Assembly: GCA_030527015.1 (NCBI GenBank)
Contig: JAUNBR010000014.1
Span: 1 to 64,000 of the forward strand
DNA from: Planctomycetia bacterium
GTDB taxonomy: Bacteria; Planctomycetota; Planctomycetia; Pirellulales; Thermoguttaceae
Direction of reading: 5' to 3'
DNA: 64,000 bases
The notes beneath the pieces are model-generated. The model was not told the DNA's origin. It searched no databases and worked only from the letters and a program-made list of their open reading frames with translations. Of the stretch, positions 2 to 8,717 are shown piece after piece. Numbering within the stretch: position 1 is the first letter of the stretch; each line of letters opens with the position of its first letter. The position numbers and the translations under genes were made by a program.

Positions 2-3000
2 ACCGCCGAGACGGGCATCACAAATCGCACCGCGGGCACGCAGTCCGGCACAGTGCAAGTTAATTCTGGCGCGGAGTACAATCTTTCCGGCTCGGGTATC
101 ATCTCCGGAGCGATAACCATCGACGCCCCCACAGCCATCCCCGGTGGCACCTCAACGCCAGGCGGCGTATTTAACCTCAGTGACAACGGAACCATTTCAA
201 ACACCGTCACAAACTCCGGCACATTCGGGATGACCGGCGGCTCCATCTCGAACGCGGATACAGATTTCACCGTCACAAATAATGCCGGCGCTACGTTTAG
301 CATTTCCAACGGCACCATCGACGAGGCGGTCGCGAACTCCGGCACGTTTAATCTTTCCGGCACGGGCGCGATTACCGGCACGGTGACGAACAACGCAGGC
401 GCCACGTTCGATTACGGCGGCGGCAGTTTTACGTCCATCGCGAACGCTGGTAACCTGAATTTCAGCACGGATTATACGTATGGCGCGCACACCATCACCG
501 GCAATGGTACAATGTCCAACACCGCGGGCACGACGTTCACGCTTTCCAGCGGCACGCTTTCGCAGGCCTTCACGGTTGGCGGCACGTTTAATCTTTCCGG
601 CACGGGCGCGACGACCGGTCTTGTGACCGTCCAAAACGCTGGAATTTTCACGCAGTCGGGTGGTTCTTCGAACGATATTTATATTGAGGCGGGTGGCTCG
701 GGCAGTCTTTCTGGCGCCGACGCGACGGTGACGGGTAACGTCACGAACTACGGCACATTCGGGATGACCGGCGGCTCCATTCAGGGTACGGGTAAAACCG
801 TCCAGAATATTAGCACCGAAACGTCTACAGGCACGTTTGACCTTTCCGGCGGTCAAATTTATAATCCCGTCGCGAACTCCGGCACGTTTAATCTTTCCGG
901 CACGGGCATAATTTCCGGCGCGGTGACGACCTCGAATGATTTTAACATGTCCGCGGGCACAATTACCGCGAATGTTACCGTCACGGGCGGTACGTTCGAT
1001 ATGACGGGTGGAAGCATTACAGGTCTGGCCACACTGTCGGGCGGAACGACGACCGTTTCCGGCGGAACTTGGGAAAATTTTAACACAGGGGTGGATGTTA
1101 ATACGGTTCAGGACGCTACTCTGACAATAGGAGGGAGTGAGACCACCACAGGTACCCTCAACCTGTATACGCTTACCTTGAACAACAACGCAATTCTTAA
1201 CCTTGAGGAGAATGGCGTTTTGGGATTATCCTATCAGCTAAAAAGAGGTGACGGCGCAAATATTACGATTAACTTCAAAGGTGGTACGGTCAAGGCAATC
1301 GGTGACGATGCTTTACTTTTAGGAGCAGGTACGACGGAGGGATCTTCTCATGTGATTTTTCATGAAAACACGACTACGATCTTTGACGCGAATGGTAAAG
1401 GGATGACCATGAATGCGTCTACGACGGGCACAAAAACAGAAAATATGGGAAATATTAAGATTGTAGATTCGTCAGGCTCAACTTCAGTAGGCCATATTAT
1501 TTTTGCTGATCATACCCAGCTTACCATAGGAGGAACCATTATCGTTGACAAAGCCTCGCTTGATATTCAAAACGCGGGTATGCATGGAACGAATTTGACG
1601 ATTACGAATGCTGGATCTGTAGAAATTTCATCTGCGTATACGACGCAGAGTTCCTTTACGGGCGAAATTGTGGTAGACAATGGTGTCTTGGAACTACATA
1701 CGACGACTCCCTTTGGTGATGCAAGTACGGTGGACGGCCCCGATTTCATTCAGGTCAATTCCTCCGGAACGCTTACGTTCCACAGTACAGATTCCAACAT
1801 TTTTTCACCTATCAAGGTGAACGGGGGAACGGTGTCGAGTGCTGGTACTGGAACTTTATTGCTTTCAAATAAAATTACTAGTGACGGTGGAGGTACTATT
1901 TCCGTGCCTTTAACGCTTCAAAACACAACGGCGCAAACGATTGAAGTGACGAACGATACCTTAAATATTAATAACACCATTTCCGGTGGCACTGGCATCA
2001 CGAGTTTTACGAAAACGGGCGCAGGTACGTTGAGCCTTTCCGGCAATACGTCGCTGAACCAGGTGGTGGAAGCGGGAACCTTAGCGCGTACGGACGGCAC
2101 TTCGACCGGTACGGTGACGGTGGGAGATGCAGACGGGACGCTCACGGGGGCGTATACTCTTTCTGGAGGTAAGCAGTCCGGACAGGTGACGGTGAATACC
2201 GGCTCAAGGATTTCTATTACCGGTGGTAATGCATCGAATGTGGAAGTGACGGCCGGCGCGACGGGGGAATTAATCTCTGGTAATATTACCGAAAAACTTA
2301 CAAATAGAGGGACGTTCGATATTGGAACTGCCACATCCGATGGGACGGCATCACTGATCGCGGACAATTATGGTACTCTGAGGCTGAACACAGGAACGAT
2401 TACTGGAACAGTGACAAACTATGGTGAGGACTTTACACTTTCAGGAGGAAGCTTTAACGGTACCATAACTAACGAATCCACAGGAAATATGATAATCAGT
2501 GGTAGTACTATAGCAGGAACGACTCAACCTGTTGCAAACGCAATTTTGAATAACAAAAATACTGTTACCATGACGAGTGGAACGCTTGAACACGTTGCAA
2601 TTAACATTACCAGTCCTGAAACTCGCTCTGCTAATTTTACTATAGATGGCGGGACTATAGAGAGCACGGCGACGTTTAATGTGACGGGCAATGCAACGCA
2701 TAAGGCGAATCTTTATATAAACGGGGGGGAACCGACGTCAACAGACACGACGGGGGTTGGATGTGGTGTAACTGTCAACGAATATGGTTATGCGGAAGTC
2801 AATGGTGGCTACACGGGTAATATTGCAGTGCACAAAGATGGAGAACTTATTATATTAAAAACCGGCACGGGAGCACCTAGTGTAAGAAACATTCATGTAG
2901 GAGAGGTGGCTACCCCTGGAGGAAACGTGGAAATTCATGGTGGTACAGTGAGGGGGAGCTTTGCTAATTACGGTACGATTAATCAGTCTGGGGGAACCGT

Positions 3001-4231
3001 CAATGACGCAGGATGGAACTATGCGGCCGGGGACTATACTCTCTCTGGAGGAACGATTTTGGGAGGAGGTTCATTTGGTTTTATGAATTCAGGAGGTTCC
3101 GTGACAATCGAAGGAACCGGTGAAATCTTGACGGGATTCCGAACTAACAACAATGGAAGTGTTACCATGACAGGAGGTAAAATTGATGGCTATTTGCAAA
3201 TAAGCTACGGAACGGCAAGTTTTACCGGCGGTAAGATTGTCGGGACGTCAACATCGGGGGTTTACGGTATTGATGGTGTTACCGTGGGGGAGTACGAAAC
3301 TAGCGGTGGTGCTACATTTACGATTAACCCCGGCACGGATCCAAGTACATATTCGTTCACTACGGATAAATTTTCTGTTGGAGTGAACGCTGCGTCGGGA
3401 ACGGTAAACCATCTGACGGGAGATATTAGTGCCACTGAATCGGTCGAATTGGGGGTGGAAAAGAGAGATCTGTCGGGAACGGGAAGATATAATCTGGTGG
3501 GTGGAAGTGTTACGACGCCTACTTTTACGGTAAATACCGGCTCGACGCTGTATTTGCCGGGACTTACGGGAACTGCGGCAGATGGTACGGTGACCGGGGA
3601 CGTGACAAATGCCGGAACCCTCGAATTGAGAAATAGAGGTGAAGATGGTTTGAGTTCCACGGAAGTGGTAGCGGCAAGCTATACGGAATCTATTATTTCA
3701 GGTAATTTTAATAATACCGGACTGTTGAGTATCGGTGTTTTGTGGACAGATCTTGCAAGTGAAGCGACAGGTGAGTTTTTCGAAACAGGCGACGCGAATG
3801 GACGAGCGGACTGGCTGAAGGTGAGTAATGCCACTGACACTGACCCTGGCACTGCAACGGTTACTCTTTCAGGAAATCTTTGGTTGGAACTGGGGAATGC
3901 GACTCAGTGGACTGAGGCTGATCTGGGTACATATATTCCTATAATTTATTCGGACACGATGATTACAGGCACGTTCGATTCTGTGAGCTGGACGTCTGGC
4001 ATGCAGGATGGACTGGCGTGGGAATTTGTTGTTCCGGGGCAAGTTGATGATCCTGTTGCTGCGAGTACCAGTGCGGGAGGTCTGACGACTATGGCTATTG
4101 GGAATGAAGGAAAGATAGGGTACATTCGATTGGTCGAATCACAAACACAGGTTCCAGAACCGGCGACGTGGGGTATGATGCTCCTGGGTCTGGCAGGACT
4201 TTTATATTTCTGCCGTCGAAAACAGGCCTAG
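2..4231 (+). CDS. Giant PEP-CTERM beta-strand-repeat protein (5' end outside window)
   Basis: The reading frame is open to the window edge, so the true start lies upstream; at least 1,409 residues are present. The chain is almost entirely Gly/Thr/Ser/Asn-rich short repeats of the type G-T-F-N-L-S-G-T-G and V-T-N-x-G-T-F, as expected of a right-handed beta-helix or autotransporter-like passenger. The last 25 residues start with VPEPATWGMMLLGLAG and end in CRRKQA. That is a PEP-CTERM signal: a PEP motif, a hydrophobic segment and a basic tail. In known systems exosortase recognises this signal and the protein is delivered to the cell surface or matrix; no exosortase gene is visible here. The first 1.1 kb is noticeably more GC-rich and more regular than the rest, with a 29-nt module repeated at about 350, 590 and 890. 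An intrinsic terminator follows. The structural class is well supported; the ligand or function is unknown. Confidence 0.93.
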   Translation, partial: TAETGITNRTAGTQSGTVQVNSGAEYNLSGSGIISGAITIDAPTAIPGGTSTPGGVFNLSDNGTISNTVTNSGTFGMTGGSISNADTDFTVTNNAGATFSISNGTIDEAVANSGTFNLSGTGAITGTVTNNAGATFDYGGGSFTSIANAGNLNFSTDYTYGAHTITGNGTMSNTAGTTFTLSSGTLSQAFTVGGTFNLSGTGATTGLVTVQNAGIFTQSGGSSNDIYIEAGGSGSLSGADATVTGNVTNYGTFGMTGGSIQGTGKTVQNISTETSTGTFDLSGGQIYNPVANSGTFNLSGTGIISGAVTTSNDFNMSAGTITANVTVTGGTFDMTGGSITGLATLSGGTTTVSGGTWENFNTGVDVNTVQDATLTIGGSETTTGTLNLYTLTLNNNAILNLEENGVLGLSYQLKRGDGANITINFKGGTVKAIGDDALLLGAGTTEGSSHVIFHENTTTIFDANGKGMTMNASTTGTKTENMGNIKIVDSSGSTSVGHIIFADHTQLTIGGTIIVDKASLDIQNAGMHGTNLTITNAGSVEISSAYTTQSSFTGEIVVDNGVLELHTTTPFGDASTVDGPDFIQVNSSGTLTFHSTDSNIFSPIKVNGGTVSSAGTGTLLLSNKITSDGGGTISVPLTLQNTTAQTIEVTNDTLNINNTISGGTGITSFTKTGAGTLSLSGNTSLNQVVEAGTLARTDGTSTGTVTVGDADGTLTGAYTLSGGKQSGQVTVNTGSRISITGGNASNVEVTAGATGELISGNITEKLTNRGTFDIGTATSDGTASLIADNYGTLRLNTGTITGTVTNYGEDFTLSGGSFNGTITNESTGNMIISGSTIAGTTQPVANAILNNKNTVTMTSGTLEHVAINITSPETRSANFTIDGGTIESTATFNVTGNATHKANLYINGGEPTSTDTTGVGCGVTVNEYGYAEVNGGYTGNIAVHKDGELIILKTGTGAPSVRNIHVGEVATPGGNVEIHGGTVRGSFANYGTINQSGGTVNDAGWNYAAGDYTLSGGTILGGGSFGFMNSGGSVTIEGTGEILTGFRTNNNGSVTMTGGKIDGYLQISYGTASFTGGKIVGTSTSGVYGIDGVTVGEYETSGGATFTINPGTDPSTYSFTTDKFSVGVNAASGTVNHLTGDISATESVELGVEKRDLSGTGRYNLVGGSVTTPTFTVNTGSTLYLPGLTGTAADGTVTGDVTNAGTLELRNRGEDGLSSTEVVAASYTESIISGNFNNTGLLSIGVLWTDLASEATGEFFETGDANGRADWLKVSNATDTDPGTATVTLSGNLWLELGNATQWTEADLGTYIPIIYSDTMITGTFDSVSWTSGMQDGLAWEFVVPGQVDDPVAASTSAGGLTTMAIGNEGKIGYIRLVESQTQVPEPATWGMMLLGLAGLLYFCRRKQA

Positions 4232-4266
4232 GATCGTTGAATGTCGTTGAGGAATCTCGTGTGAAA

Positions 4267-4296
4267 AGGGACGTGTGAATCACGTCTCTTTTTTTG
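4267..4296 (+). terminator. Intrinsic terminator of the PEP-CTERM gene
   Basis: GACGTG and CACGTC form a stem around a 5-nt loop, extended by G-T pairs, followed directly by a T-run (CTCTTTTTTT). It sits about 40 nt after the stop codon. Confidence 0.85.
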
Positions 4297-4311
4297 TGGA
4301 AAAGGGGGGAG

Positions 4312-4360
4312 GGAGTTAGGAGTTAGGAGGGAGGAGGGAGGAGTTGGGAGTTGGGAGTTG
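4312..4360 (+). repeat. Heptanucleotide tandem array (7 units)
   Basis: Seven head-to-tail 7-bp units: GGAGTTA twice, GGAGGGA twice, GGAGTTG three times, running into further G-runs up to 4373. A second array with the same consensus (GGRGTKR) is at 8669-8717. The strand has many G-triplets and could form a G-quadruplex. Confidence 0.9.
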
Positions 4361-4373
4361 GGGGGGTTGGGGG

Positions 4374-4402
4374 TTGACAGGGGGGGGCTGCTCTGGTATT
4401 AT
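4374..4402 (+). promoter_or_regulatory. Sigma70-type promoter with an eight-G tract in the spacer
   Basis: A perfect TTGACA (4374-4379) and TATTAT (4397-4402) are separated by 17 bp. The first eight bases of that spacer are an uninterrupted G-run (4380-4387). It points at the hydrolase gene starting at 4496, giving a leader of roughly 85 nt. Slippage in the G-run would change the -35/-10 distance. Confidence 0.7.
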
Positions 4403-4418
4403 GGGGGGAGTTTTTATG

Positions 4419-4468
4419 GAATGCCTCGGTGATGTGCAAAATGGAAATTTAAAATGGAATCAGAATAT
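4419..4468 (+). repeat. DPE, forward, right half only
   Basis: Matches the right half of the dispersed element: AATGCC, then the right arm GGAAATTTAAAATGGAA and CAGAATAT. The left arm is missing. It lies in the 5' leader of the hydrolase gene. Confidence 0.7.
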
Positions 4469-4495
4469 GCCTGATAAAAAGGAGAGGTTTACACC

Positions 4496-6586
4496 ATGAA
4501 ATTAAAGGTGTTATTGCTTACAGTACTGAATTTTGCGATTCTTTCGCAAGGTATGGCGGCAGAATCCAATATGATTTTTCATTTGTCGAATGCTTATGTC
4601 GGTCGAACACTATCGATCCAAGATGGTATTTTGCGTACCGTGAAGATCGAAAATAAACGACTTAAGAAGAGTTGGGAGCCGACCGAGGCGGCCGAATTTC
4701 GAGTGCGCGTTTCGAAGGGAACGCAATTTTTGGAGGGAGACGAGATTTTGTCGTCGCGCGATTTTAAGTGCACGGGTCAAAAGTCGTATGTTTTGCAGGA
4801 AGGAGGAAAAGGACTGGAATTTACCCTGGAAAATAAAACGCGTCCGATGAAAGTGGTGGTTCGTTATGAACTGAAAACGGACGAATTTTATATGAGGAAA
4901 TGGCTGGAGATCGAATCGGGAACTCCGATAACGCTGGAATATATAGAGGTGGAATCGATTCCGGCGGCGGATGCGAGTCAGCCGTATACGTGCAGGGAGA
5001 TTTATGCACGCGGTACGTGGCGTCCGGGTCTGGGTCAGCCGCTTTATACGACACAGACGAGCACGTTTTGGGGAATGGAATTTCCGGCGGCGGTGAATTC
5101 GGTGGAAGCAAAAGTCCTGCAGTGCGCCTATTATTGGGGCCGTGAGGTGAAAGCGGGAGAAAAATACAAAACATATGCGTCGGTGTGTGGCGTGGGAGAT
5201 GATCCGGCATATGTTTTCGAGGCGTTTTTGGAATATATCGATAAAACGCGTGCCCATGAAGCACGTCTGCAGGTCCAGTATAACACATGGTTTGACATGG
5301 GTGGCGGCGTTACGAAAGACAGCTTCAAAACAAGCATCGAAACGATTCATGATCAGCTGGTACAAAAACGTGGGTGCCCGGCGCTGAACGCGTATGTGAT
5401 TGATGCTGGGTGGAGCAGAAAAACGGACGTTCTGAAACAGGCGTATCCGGTAAATAATAAATTCGATTCGGATTTTACCACGTCACGTCAGGCGGTCAAA
5501 GCAGCAGAATCCTCTCTTGGTCTGTGGCTGAGCCCGGGATGTTTTTTTGGTTCGCAGCCGATGGTTTCGGAATATCGTGCGGCGGGGTATGAGGCCCTGT
5601 CACTGTCCATGTCGATGTGTGGTCCGAAGTATATGGACTTATGGGAAAAAAGAGTTCTGGAACTGACGAAACTTGGTATCAGCTATTTTAAATTTGACGG
5701 ACTTTTTGGGCATTTACATGTGCGCGATTTTGAACTGCAGGGCCGAGGCTGTCCTGGGATGCCGCAGCTGGAAACGAATTTTAGCTGTAATGATGAAAGG
5801 CTTAACGAAGATAAGTATAATGAGTTAAAATATTATTATTTGACCGCGGGCAGTGAACGTCTGATTTCAGCGTTTACAAAAATACGGGAAATTAACCCCG
5901 AAATATATATCGCCATCACGAATGGCGCTTGGCTGAGTCCGTGGTGGCTTCAGCATGTGGACACGGTTTGGCTGATTAACGCGGGAGATGCCGCGACAGG
6001 CGCGACGCGCAGAGAAGAACTGGTTTATCGAGATGGTATTTATAATTCGATATATCGGGTGGAGAAAACACAATTTCCGATGAATTCACTCTTTAACCAT
6101 GAGCCGAAAAAGAATAAAGCGGGCGAAACGGCGAAGGAATTTCGAGATTATCTGTGGATGAATATGTCTCGGGGTACCGGATTCATCGAATTATATATTC
6201 GTCCTAGAGTTTTGACGGAATCCGACTGGGATATTTTGTCGGAGGGAATTTTGTGGGTGCATGAAATATTTCCGTGTTTTAAGCGTGCACGGATGCATGG
6301 GGGCGCGCCACAGAAGGGAGAGGTTTACGGTTTTTCTGGATGGGATGGGGTGAAAATCGGTTACGTTTCGATTCATAATCCGTCGGACGTGGCGCAGGAT
6401 TATAACGTTCATTTAGATCGTGCTTTAGGAATGCTTCCGGGAGATACGAACACGTATAAAGTGAAGGAAGTCGTGGGCGGAGGAAAAAATGATTTGGCCA
6501 CGGAATATAAATTTGGAGATTCTCTGACACTAAAAATGGAACCGGGAGAAATCCGCGTGATTCAGTTTGAGGTGTCGGGCACGTAA
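4496..6586 (+). CDS. Secreted glycoside hydrolase, alpha-galactosidase-like TIM barrel
   Basis: 696 residues. An N-terminal signal peptide (about residues 1-22, ending in GMAA) implies export. A beta-rich N-terminal region of about 250 residues is followed by a barrel carrying YVIDAGW, LWLSPGC and YFKFDG, then a C-terminal beta domain. The K-F-D strand resembles the nucleophile Asp of clan GH-D enzymes (GH27/GH36) and the D-A-G-W strand their substrate-binding Asp. That points to release of alpha-linked galactose or a similar terminal sugar from polysaccharides or glycans outside the cytoplasm. The start is supported by AAAGGAGAGG just upstream. The gene has its own promoter at 4374-4402 and no obvious operon partner. 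The hydrolase fold is confident; substrate and exact GH family are not. Confidence 0.85.
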   Translation: MKLKVLLLTVLNFAILSQGMAAESNMIFHLSNAYVGRTLSIQDGILRTVKIENKRLKKSWEPTEAAEFRVRVSKGTQFLEGDEILSSRDFKCTGQKSYVLQEGGKGLEFTLENKTRPMKVVVRYELKTDEFYMRKWLEIESGTPITLEYIEVESIPAADASQPYTCREIYARGTWRPGLGQPLYTTQTSTFWGMEFPAAVNSVEAKVLQCAYYWGREVKAGEKYKTYASVCGVGDDPAYVFEAFLEYIDKTRAHEARLQVQYNTWFDMGGGVTKDSFKTSIETIHDQLVQKRGCPALNAYVIDAGWSRKTDVLKQAYPVNNKFDSDFTTSRQAVKAAESSLGLWLSPGCFFGSQPMVSEYRAAGYEALSLSMSMCGPKYMDLWEKRVLELTKLGISYFKFDGLFGHLHVRDFELQGRGCPGMPQLETNFSCNDERLNEDKYNELKYYYLTAGSERLISAFTKIREINPEIYIAITNGAWLSPWWLQHVDTVWLINAGDAATGATRREELVYRDGIYNSIYRVEKTQFPMNSLFNHEPKKNKAGETAKEFRDYLWMNMSRGTGFIELYIRPRVLTESDWDILSEGILWVHEIFPCFKRARMHGGAPQKGEVYGFSGWDGVKIGYVSIHNPSDVAQDYNVHLDRALGMLPGDTNTYKVKEVVGGGKNDLATEYKFGDSLTLKMEPGEIRVIQFEVSGT

Positions 6587-7427: not shown

Positions 7428-8696
7428 ATGAATAAAAGCTCCCCAGAGGTTTTTTTGGGCCGTGCGTCGGTGGTAGGCAGGCTGTTCTTTTTTCTTGTTC
7501 TTGTTTTTTTCTTTTTGGTTGCCGTTAAACTGTTCGGTAATTCGGTGGAAACGTTCGGCAGTGAGTCGATAAAATCGCTTTTTGACGGACTTAAAAATCC
7601 CTTCGCGGGTCTGGCGGTGGGAATTCTGGCCACGGCTCTGATTCAGAGTTCCTCGGCGACGACCAGTATTATCGTGGCGATGGTAGGTTCCGGGCAGCTG
7701 GATTTCGCGACGGCGATTCCCATGGTCATGGGCGCGAATGTCGGTACGACGATCACCTGTCTGGTGATCGCGTTCGGGCATGTGGGAGATAAAATCACAT
7801 TCGGACGCGCTTTTGCCGGAGGAACGGTTCATGATAATTTTAATATCCTGACGGTGTGTATTCTGTTTCCGGTGGAAATTCTTACCCGACATATAAATGG
7901 AACTGGTTTTTTGGAGGGCAGTGCACTTTATCTGACGGGATTCTTGACGGGTGGAACCGCTGCCGCGTCGGCCTCCAGCACGACTCTGGGATCTCTGAAT
8001 CCGATTAACGCGACGGTCGCTCCGGTGGCGGCGGCGATTCAGGAATTCTTTTTCCGTCTCCCGATCCTCGAAGGAAATTGGAAAGCGATTCCTTCGGCTA
8101 TTTTCGCCCTGATTCTGCTGATTATCTCCCTGATATGGATCACGAAAAATATGAAAGTGCTCATCGCGGGAAAAGCAGAAGTATGGATTCAGAAAATTTT
8201 GTCGGAAAGAGGTTACCTGGGACTTCTTATCGGTTTTACGCTGACGATGATCGTGCAGTCTTCGTCGATTACGACTTCCCTTCTGGTGCCCATGTACGCG
8301 GCGGGAATTATTACGCCTTTTCAGGCTTTTCCGATTCTCGTGGGAGCAAATATCGGGACCACGACTACCGGTCTGCTGGCGTCCACCGTTTCCGATTCGT
8401 CCCTGGGAATTACGATCGCCCTGGTGCACACGCTGTTTAACGTGGTCGGAACCCTGATTTTTTACCCGCTGCCCTTCATGCGAAAAATCCCAGTCGCGAT
8501 CTCTGAGTTTTTTGCGTCGAAGGTTATCCAGCACCGTATATGGGCCCTGGTTTATGTGGTCATGGTGTTCTTCGTGATTCCGATTACCGGAATCTTTATC
8601 TGGAAAGATCCGCCGAAAGAAGGGCTGAATGCTCCACAGGCGGAGATGCAAAATGTGGAAGAGGGAGGGGAGTTGGGAGTGAGGAGTGAGGGGTGA
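7428..8696 (+). CDS. Na+/phosphate cotransporter, NptA/PNaS family
   Basis: 422 residues and strongly hydrophobic. It shows the two inverted QSSS repeats diagnostic of the Na/Pi-cotransporter family: IQSSSATTS near residue 72 and VQSSSITTS near residue 277. Each is followed by a GANVGTT or GANIGTT motif. It should import phosphate with sodium across the inner membrane. Many bacterial homologues carry a fused C-terminal PhoU domain. Here the protein stops without one and a separate PhoU-like gene follows at 9042. The last dozen residues (G-E-L-G-V-R-S-E-G) and the stop codon come from the heptamer array at 8669-8717, so the C terminus looks repeat-derived. The RBS is GAAGGG. Confidence 0.92.
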   Translation: MNKSSPEVFLGRASVVGRLFFFLVLVFFFLVAVKLFGNSVETFGSESIKSLFDGLKNPFAGLAVGILATALIQSSSATTSIIVAMVGSGQLDFATAIPMVMGANVGTTITCLVIAFGHVGDKITFGRAFAGGTVHDNFNILTVCILFPVEILTRHINGTGFLEGSALYLTGFLTGGTAAASASSTTLGSLNPINATVAPVAAAIQEFFFRLPILEGNWKAIPSAIFALILLIISLIWITKNMKVLIAGKAEVWIQKILSERGYLGLLIGFTLTMIVQSSSITTSLLVPMYAAGIITPFQAFPILVGANIGTTTTGLLASTVSDSSLGITIALVHTLFNVVGTLIFYPLPFMRKIPVAISEFFASKVIQHRIWALVYVVMVFFVIPITGIFIWKDPPKEGLNAPQAEMQNVEEGGELGVRSEG

Positions 8697-8717
8697 GGGG
8701 TGAGGAGTTGGGGGTGG
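8669..8717 (+). repeat. Heptanucleotide tandem array (7 units), overlapping a gene end
   Basis: Units GGAGTTG, GGAGTGA twice, GGGGTGA twice, GGAGTTG and GGGGTGG. The consensus and unit number match the array at 4312-4360. The transporter stop codon TGA (8694-8696) is inside the fourth unit. Confidence 0.88.

Follow-up and report, generated by a model that had tools for sequence, protein, structure and literature searches.

Does a run of eight guanines between the −35 and −10 elements of a bacterial promoter mark a phase-variable switch, or can such a run be incidental to an ordinary, essentially fixed promoter? The question is raised by the intergenic region upstream of a gene for a putative secreted glycosidase in a planctomycete genome, analysed here within a stretch of 64,000 nucleotides (the window, which opens with the first base of contig C24). 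An earlier note had proposed a phase-variable promoter at this locus, and its description of the site is exact: both hexamers and their ideal 17-bp spacing, the G8 run at the beginning of the spacer, and the heptamer array just upstream of the promoter were all recovered (Table 1). A homopolymer is present between −35 and −10, as in promoters of the porA/opc type. The spacer reads G8, CTGCTC, TGG in this order, so that the run directly adjoins the −35 and not the −10, from which 9 nt separate it. The promoter is placed between the terminator of the upstream gene and the start codon (ATG 4496) of the GH36-like glycosidase gene, and transcription would start near 4409.

Table 1. Features of the window around the glycosidase promoter, and promoters with G-tracts in their spacers elsewhere in the same genome.
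Feature	Position	Strand	Composition	Basis
Upstream gene (3' part), secreted repeat-rich PEP-CTERM protein	53–4231	+		ORF, PF07589, TIGR02595
Intrinsic terminator of upstream gene	4268–4295	+	GGGACGTG-TGAAT-CACGTCTC-T7	read by eye
Heptamer array (dispersed repeat)	4312–4359	+	GGAGTTA/GGGAGTT; 6.9 copies of GGAGTTA	repeat scan
−35 hexamer	4374–4379	+	TTGACA	sequence and promoter scan
Spacer, 17 bp	4380–4396	+	GGGGGGGGCTGCTCTGG; 3' end TGG (TGn extended −10)	sequence and promoter scan
G8 run, 5' end of spacer	4380–4387	+	G8	sequence
−10 hexamer	4397–4402	+	TATTAT	promoter scan
Dispersed intergenic repeat fragment in inferred 5' UTR	4434–4475	+		88–90 % copies elsewhere in genome
Likely ribosome-binding site	4480–4487	+	AGGAGAGG	read from sequence
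Secreted GH36-like glycosidase, 696 aa	4496–6586	+		ORF, profile search, structure model
Promoter, contig C48	C48:6934–6966		TTGACA-AATAC-G16-TATACT; spacer 21 bp	
Promoter, contig C50	C50:2214–2244		TTGACA-AATAC-G14-TATGCT; spacer 19 bp	
Promoter, contig C120	C120:20207–20236		TTGACA-C-G15-TATAAT; spacer 16 bp	
Promoter, contig C37	C37:145–171		TTGACG-TTTCC-G10-TAGAAT; spacer 15 bp	

The promoter is real and, to judge from its sequence features, probably active. In a consensus scan the hexamer pair scored 11/12 as a sigma-70-like promoter at 17 bp and was the sole site of at least 9/12 within 4200–4520. A score of 11/12 on the plus strand with a spacing of 16–18 bp was reached in 2 of 4000 dinucleotide shuffles of 4297–4495, and a match by chance is therefore unlikely. 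The −35 begins at the border of the heptamer array, and the intergenic region is pieced together from repeats, which would suit a fortuitous match in G-rich repeat DNA, with transcription starting elsewhere (e. g., in the repeat at 4434–4475 or by read-through). However, the shuffles, the lack of any competing site, the terminator preceding the promoter and the recurrence of TTGACA-16/17-TANAAT as the promoter form across the family render this improbable.

The protein of the upstream gene, the true start of which may lie beyond the contig end, matches the PEP-CTERM family PF07589 (E 7e-7) as well as TIGR02595. A 97 % copy of its terminator stands behind another PEP-CTERM gene of the same genome; the consensus scanner did not report the terminator at 4268–4295, possibly misled by A-T pairs that can lengthen the stem into the T run. 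The heptamer repeat recurs at 8669–8711 of the window (GGAGTTA/GGAGTGA), at a few other sites of the genome and in several genera of the family, where it is sometimes arranged as inverted pairs and comes without the window promoter. The array was rejected as a cause of switching, being no part of the promoter and occurring elsewhere in its absence. The repeat within the putative glycosidase 5' UTR is a fragment of a dispersed intergenic element of ~65 bp (GCATAAAACGGAAATTTAAAATGGAATCAG...), with copies at C118:33254, C21:4941 and C19:56236.

The target gene had been described as encoding a secreted glycan-degrading enzyme. A search of Pfam and NCBIfam with the 696-aa protein gave no match at curated cut-offs, and a plain sequence search of the PDB gave nothing. 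A profile built from 17 homologues, two of which match Melibiase weakly (best E 0.0023), led to alpha-galactosidases in the PDB (E 2.8e-6), and the predicted structure (pLDDT 86) was matched by Foldseek to the GH36 enzyme 4fnr (E 4.4e-27, TM 0.59); an earlier model from four sequences was poor (pLDDT 50) and was set aside. The predicted architecture comprises a signal peptide (recognised in the sequence itself), a beta-sandwich, a (beta/alpha)8 barrel and a C-terminal beta-sandwich. The target resembles the GH36 alpha-galactosidases 4fnr, 2xn0 and 3mi6 in fold and in the FK(x)DG motif of the barrel, at an identity of only 10–14 %. The model has the GH36 fold with the catalytic Asp in FK-x-D, and K399 and D401 are invariant across the 17 homologues. 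The profile match, the model match and these invariant residues make the proposed secreted glycan-degrading enzyme a reasonable call. The protein carries no PEP-CTERM (its C-terminus reads ...IRVIQFEVSGT).

Is G8 a conspicuous length in this genome? The intergenic stretch 4297–4495 contains runs of G6, G7, G5, G8 and G6, and G8 or longer was present in 2044 of 4000 (51 %) of its dinucleotide shuffles, so that a G8 alone is expected in such G-rich DNA. In the 3.84-Mb genome there is a single case of TTGACA directly followed by G8, and none of the other G8 runs matched the promoter pattern. Counted at exact lengths, G-runs of the genome fall from ~58 (G7) to ~10 (G8) and 2 (G9) before rising to a second hump of ~20 runs at G10 or longer, as is expected if long tracts are maintained. 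The G8 run of the promoter is at background length for the genome, whereas nearly every tract that appears to switch has G9 or more. Among the longest runs are a G20 on C91 (beside Ns) and a G17 on C61, which lie close to the end of a contig or in sequence of low complexity and may be assembly artefacts.

Four long tracts of the window genome (G000) lie in promoter spacers (C48, C50, C120 and C37, Table 1). Located mostly before secreted PEP-CTERM proteins, these are candidates for true phase-variable promoters. The AATAC flank is found again in a congener (G001) with G10 (15 bp) and with G12 (17 bp); the C48, C50 and G001 promoters thus have like flanks and unlike tract lengths, with the spacing left uncompensated. 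In total, the contingency set comprises 26 promoters from the window genus and genus g52, whose spacers of 12–21 bp track tract length and whose tracts (G9–G16, one G8) abut the −10, an abutment that is partly by definition because the set was chosen for it. Tracts of G9 or longer number 22, 89, 15, 11, 53, 149, 20 and 38 in genomes G000–G007 of the window genus, respectively. In another genus (G058, G057, G059), TTGACAGCGCC(A)-G8..10-TGATTATACT occurs at several loci with spacers of 17–19 bp, and these loci stand upstream of LamG-like secreted proteins. Among the matches listed, the poly-G spacer promoter pattern extends to many distant bacteria (a measure of breadth, not of rates) and occurs several times per genome in rabbit-gut Bacilli MAGs and in Candidatus Ancillula Gsp477_bin129.

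Other tracts of G10–G13 are located ~30–52 nt past the start codon, inside genes for secreted proteins. In the window genome, four share the frame of a long ORF (C2 G12, C58 G11, C87 G11, C104 G10) and three are out of frame (C87 G13, C88 G11, C114 G11). Two of these, the in-frame G11 at C87:27542–27552 and the out-of-frame G13 at C87:32205–32217, belong to neighbouring PEP-CTERM paralogues with the same leader, and similar early-frame tract loci are present in G005 and G004. Such a mixture would be the usual signature of translational phase variation; all compared genomes are drafts, and some of the mixture could stem from homopolymer assembly errors. The likely poly-G switches outside the window site appear to lie mostly at genes for PEP-CTERM surface-sorted proteins. 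Among ORFs read behind G-tract promoters in G000, G001, G002 and G005, 16 are at least 180 aa long, and ten of these finish with a PEP-CTERM-type tail (VPEPATWLLL...RKR). In G000, a same-strand tract of G9 or longer lies within 200 bp of the start of six PEP-CTERM frames, and translation added three further cases (C37, C48 and the first copy on C87), compared to a rough chance expectation of <0.1 for such proximity (22 tracts, 26 PEP-CTERM genes). Across the eight genomes the number of PEP-CTERM genes does not simply track that of tracts, G002 and G006 having many such genes and few tracts. The congener G005 also has what we take to be a DUF1559-type pilin-like protein, a signature that would place the genus in the Planctomycetota. 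From the tract and target patterns we infer that poly-G phase variation very probably operates in the window genome and its genus.

Whether the window promoter belongs to this class can be judged against a control, an McsA-like gene whose G8-spacer promoters came up in the same family search. Its promoter, TTGACA-16-TAGAAT, keeps its spacing strictly across the family, with a tendency towards G-richness in the spacer. Among 37 promoters upstream of its orthologues, 33 are spaced at 16 bp, the longest G-run in the spacer ranging from G1 to G8, and the spacers that contain G6 or longer (12 distinct ones) all measure exactly 16 bp, with 4–7 nt from tract to −10 and usually TGn. G-runs of up to G8 therefore occur in fixed promoters of the family, and for this reason a G8 run in the spacer is insufficient to call a promoter phase-variable. 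The window promoter likewise has near-optimal spacing, a run of no more than eight away from the −10, and TGn. It differs from the McsA-like promoters in its spacing (17 vs. 16 bp), in its gene and in the contact of G8 with the −35, which are separated by 1–5 nt in the McsA-like class; this contact is unlike any long-run McsA-like promoter, which makes the match to the fixed class inexact. With the contingency promoters C48, C50, C120 and C37 it shares TTGAC(A/G), a G-run in the spacer, a −10 of the form TANNNT and a secreted product. However, the contingency class has longer tracts, nearly all of G9 or more, abutting the −10, spacers of 12–21 bp and mostly PEP-CTERM targets, whereas the window G8 ends 9 nt before the −10 and precedes a gene of another kind. 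By its layout, the window promoter thus resembles the McsA-like fixed class and not the contingency class.

The earlier note had suggested comparing the tract in relatives, and this lent no support to a conserved switch. Close orthologues of the glycosidase are present in three of seven congeners (G004, G006 and G007; 56–58 % identity); upstream of these there is no G-tract, similar promoter or synteny, and the neighbouring genes differ. At this identity and with other gene orders they are too distant to show a fixed length within the species. A search of 4232–4600 across 119 genomes of the family found no relative with the window promoter, all matches being to the heptamer array, the terminator or the dispersed repeat. 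A contingency locus that has decayed from a longer tract, or a young one whose tract is growing, with switching now rare in either case, is very improbable: the neighbouring gene does encode a PEP-CTERM protein, the usual target class, but the tract occupies the −35 end of the spacer instead of the −10 end, and a longer version was seen in no relative.

We therefore favour, with a probability of about 0.63, an ordinary, strong and essentially fixed promoter of the GH36-like gene, in which G8 is incidental and no switch is maintained. RNA polymerase would use TTGACA and, at the optimal distance of 17 bp, the extended −10 (TGG-TATTAT), and the transcript of the glycosidase gene would have a leader of ~87 nt. 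The spacer presumably carries G8 because the intergenic region is G-rich, partly through the heptamer repeats. The run would probably slip rarely; occasional slippage is possible. Real poly-G switches, very probably present in the same genome, would form a separate class, in which longer tracts adjoin the −10 or occur early in the coding frame, for the most part at genes of PEP-CTERM surface proteins. Against this fixed reading stands that the organism tolerates and keeps long G-tracts, so that poly-G slippage may be high. Any slip in a spacer G-run must alter promoter spacing, and G8 tracts do switch in some bacteria. In a promoter of the porA/opc type, slipped-strand mispairing would turn G8 into G7 or G9 and the spacer into 16 or 18 bp, lowering or switching glycosidase expression. 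This is the part of the earlier proposal that we consider doubtful, even though the geometry is correct, the same genome has G-tract promoters as well as ON/OFF frame-shift tracts, and the expression of porA, fetA and opc varies with homopolymers in the spacer from −35 to −10 (PMC2791445; for opc also PMC3960869). The G8 is of background length, the layout is unlike all 26 contingency promoters, the target is not a PEP-CTERM protein and the congeners have no tract. Moreover, 16–18 bp are all workable spacings, so that one-base slips would give modest changes. What stands of the proposal is its general idea, which is well supported for this organism by poly-G tracts in promoter spacers, and by frame-shift tracts besides, in the genome and its congeners.

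The window site itself matters little, and the wider poly-G result matters more. We consider it quite likely that the genus possesses an extensive poly-G contingency system, with as many as ~150 tracts of G9 or longer in a genome, which would switch PEP-CTERM exosortase-sorted surface proteins via promoter-spacer tracts and post-start frame-shift tracts and to which the window promoter would belong marginally. If true, such a repertoire across the genome, linked to exosortase-sorted proteins, would represent a testable route to surface diversity in these uncultured bacteria. The best-known cases of poly-G switching of surface proteins come from pathogens that live with a host (such as Neisseria, Campylobacter and Helicobacter). 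Neither phase variation in planctomycetes nor that of PEP-CTERM proteins turned up in a search of the open-access literature. For mononucleotide-repeat genes of the PEP-CTERM-bearing gut bacterium Akkermansia muciniphila, poly-G phase variation has been proposed, including a G8 repeat; these tracts lie inside genes, and the portion of that work considered here draws no tie to PEP-CTERM proteins (PMC3048395). Close parallels to the window site are the neisserial genes porA, fetA and opc, which likewise combine a G or C homopolymer between −35 and −10 with a surface or secreted product. However, these switch experimentally, whereas the window promoter, known from its sequence, has a G8 run at the −35 end of the spacer and an extended −10.
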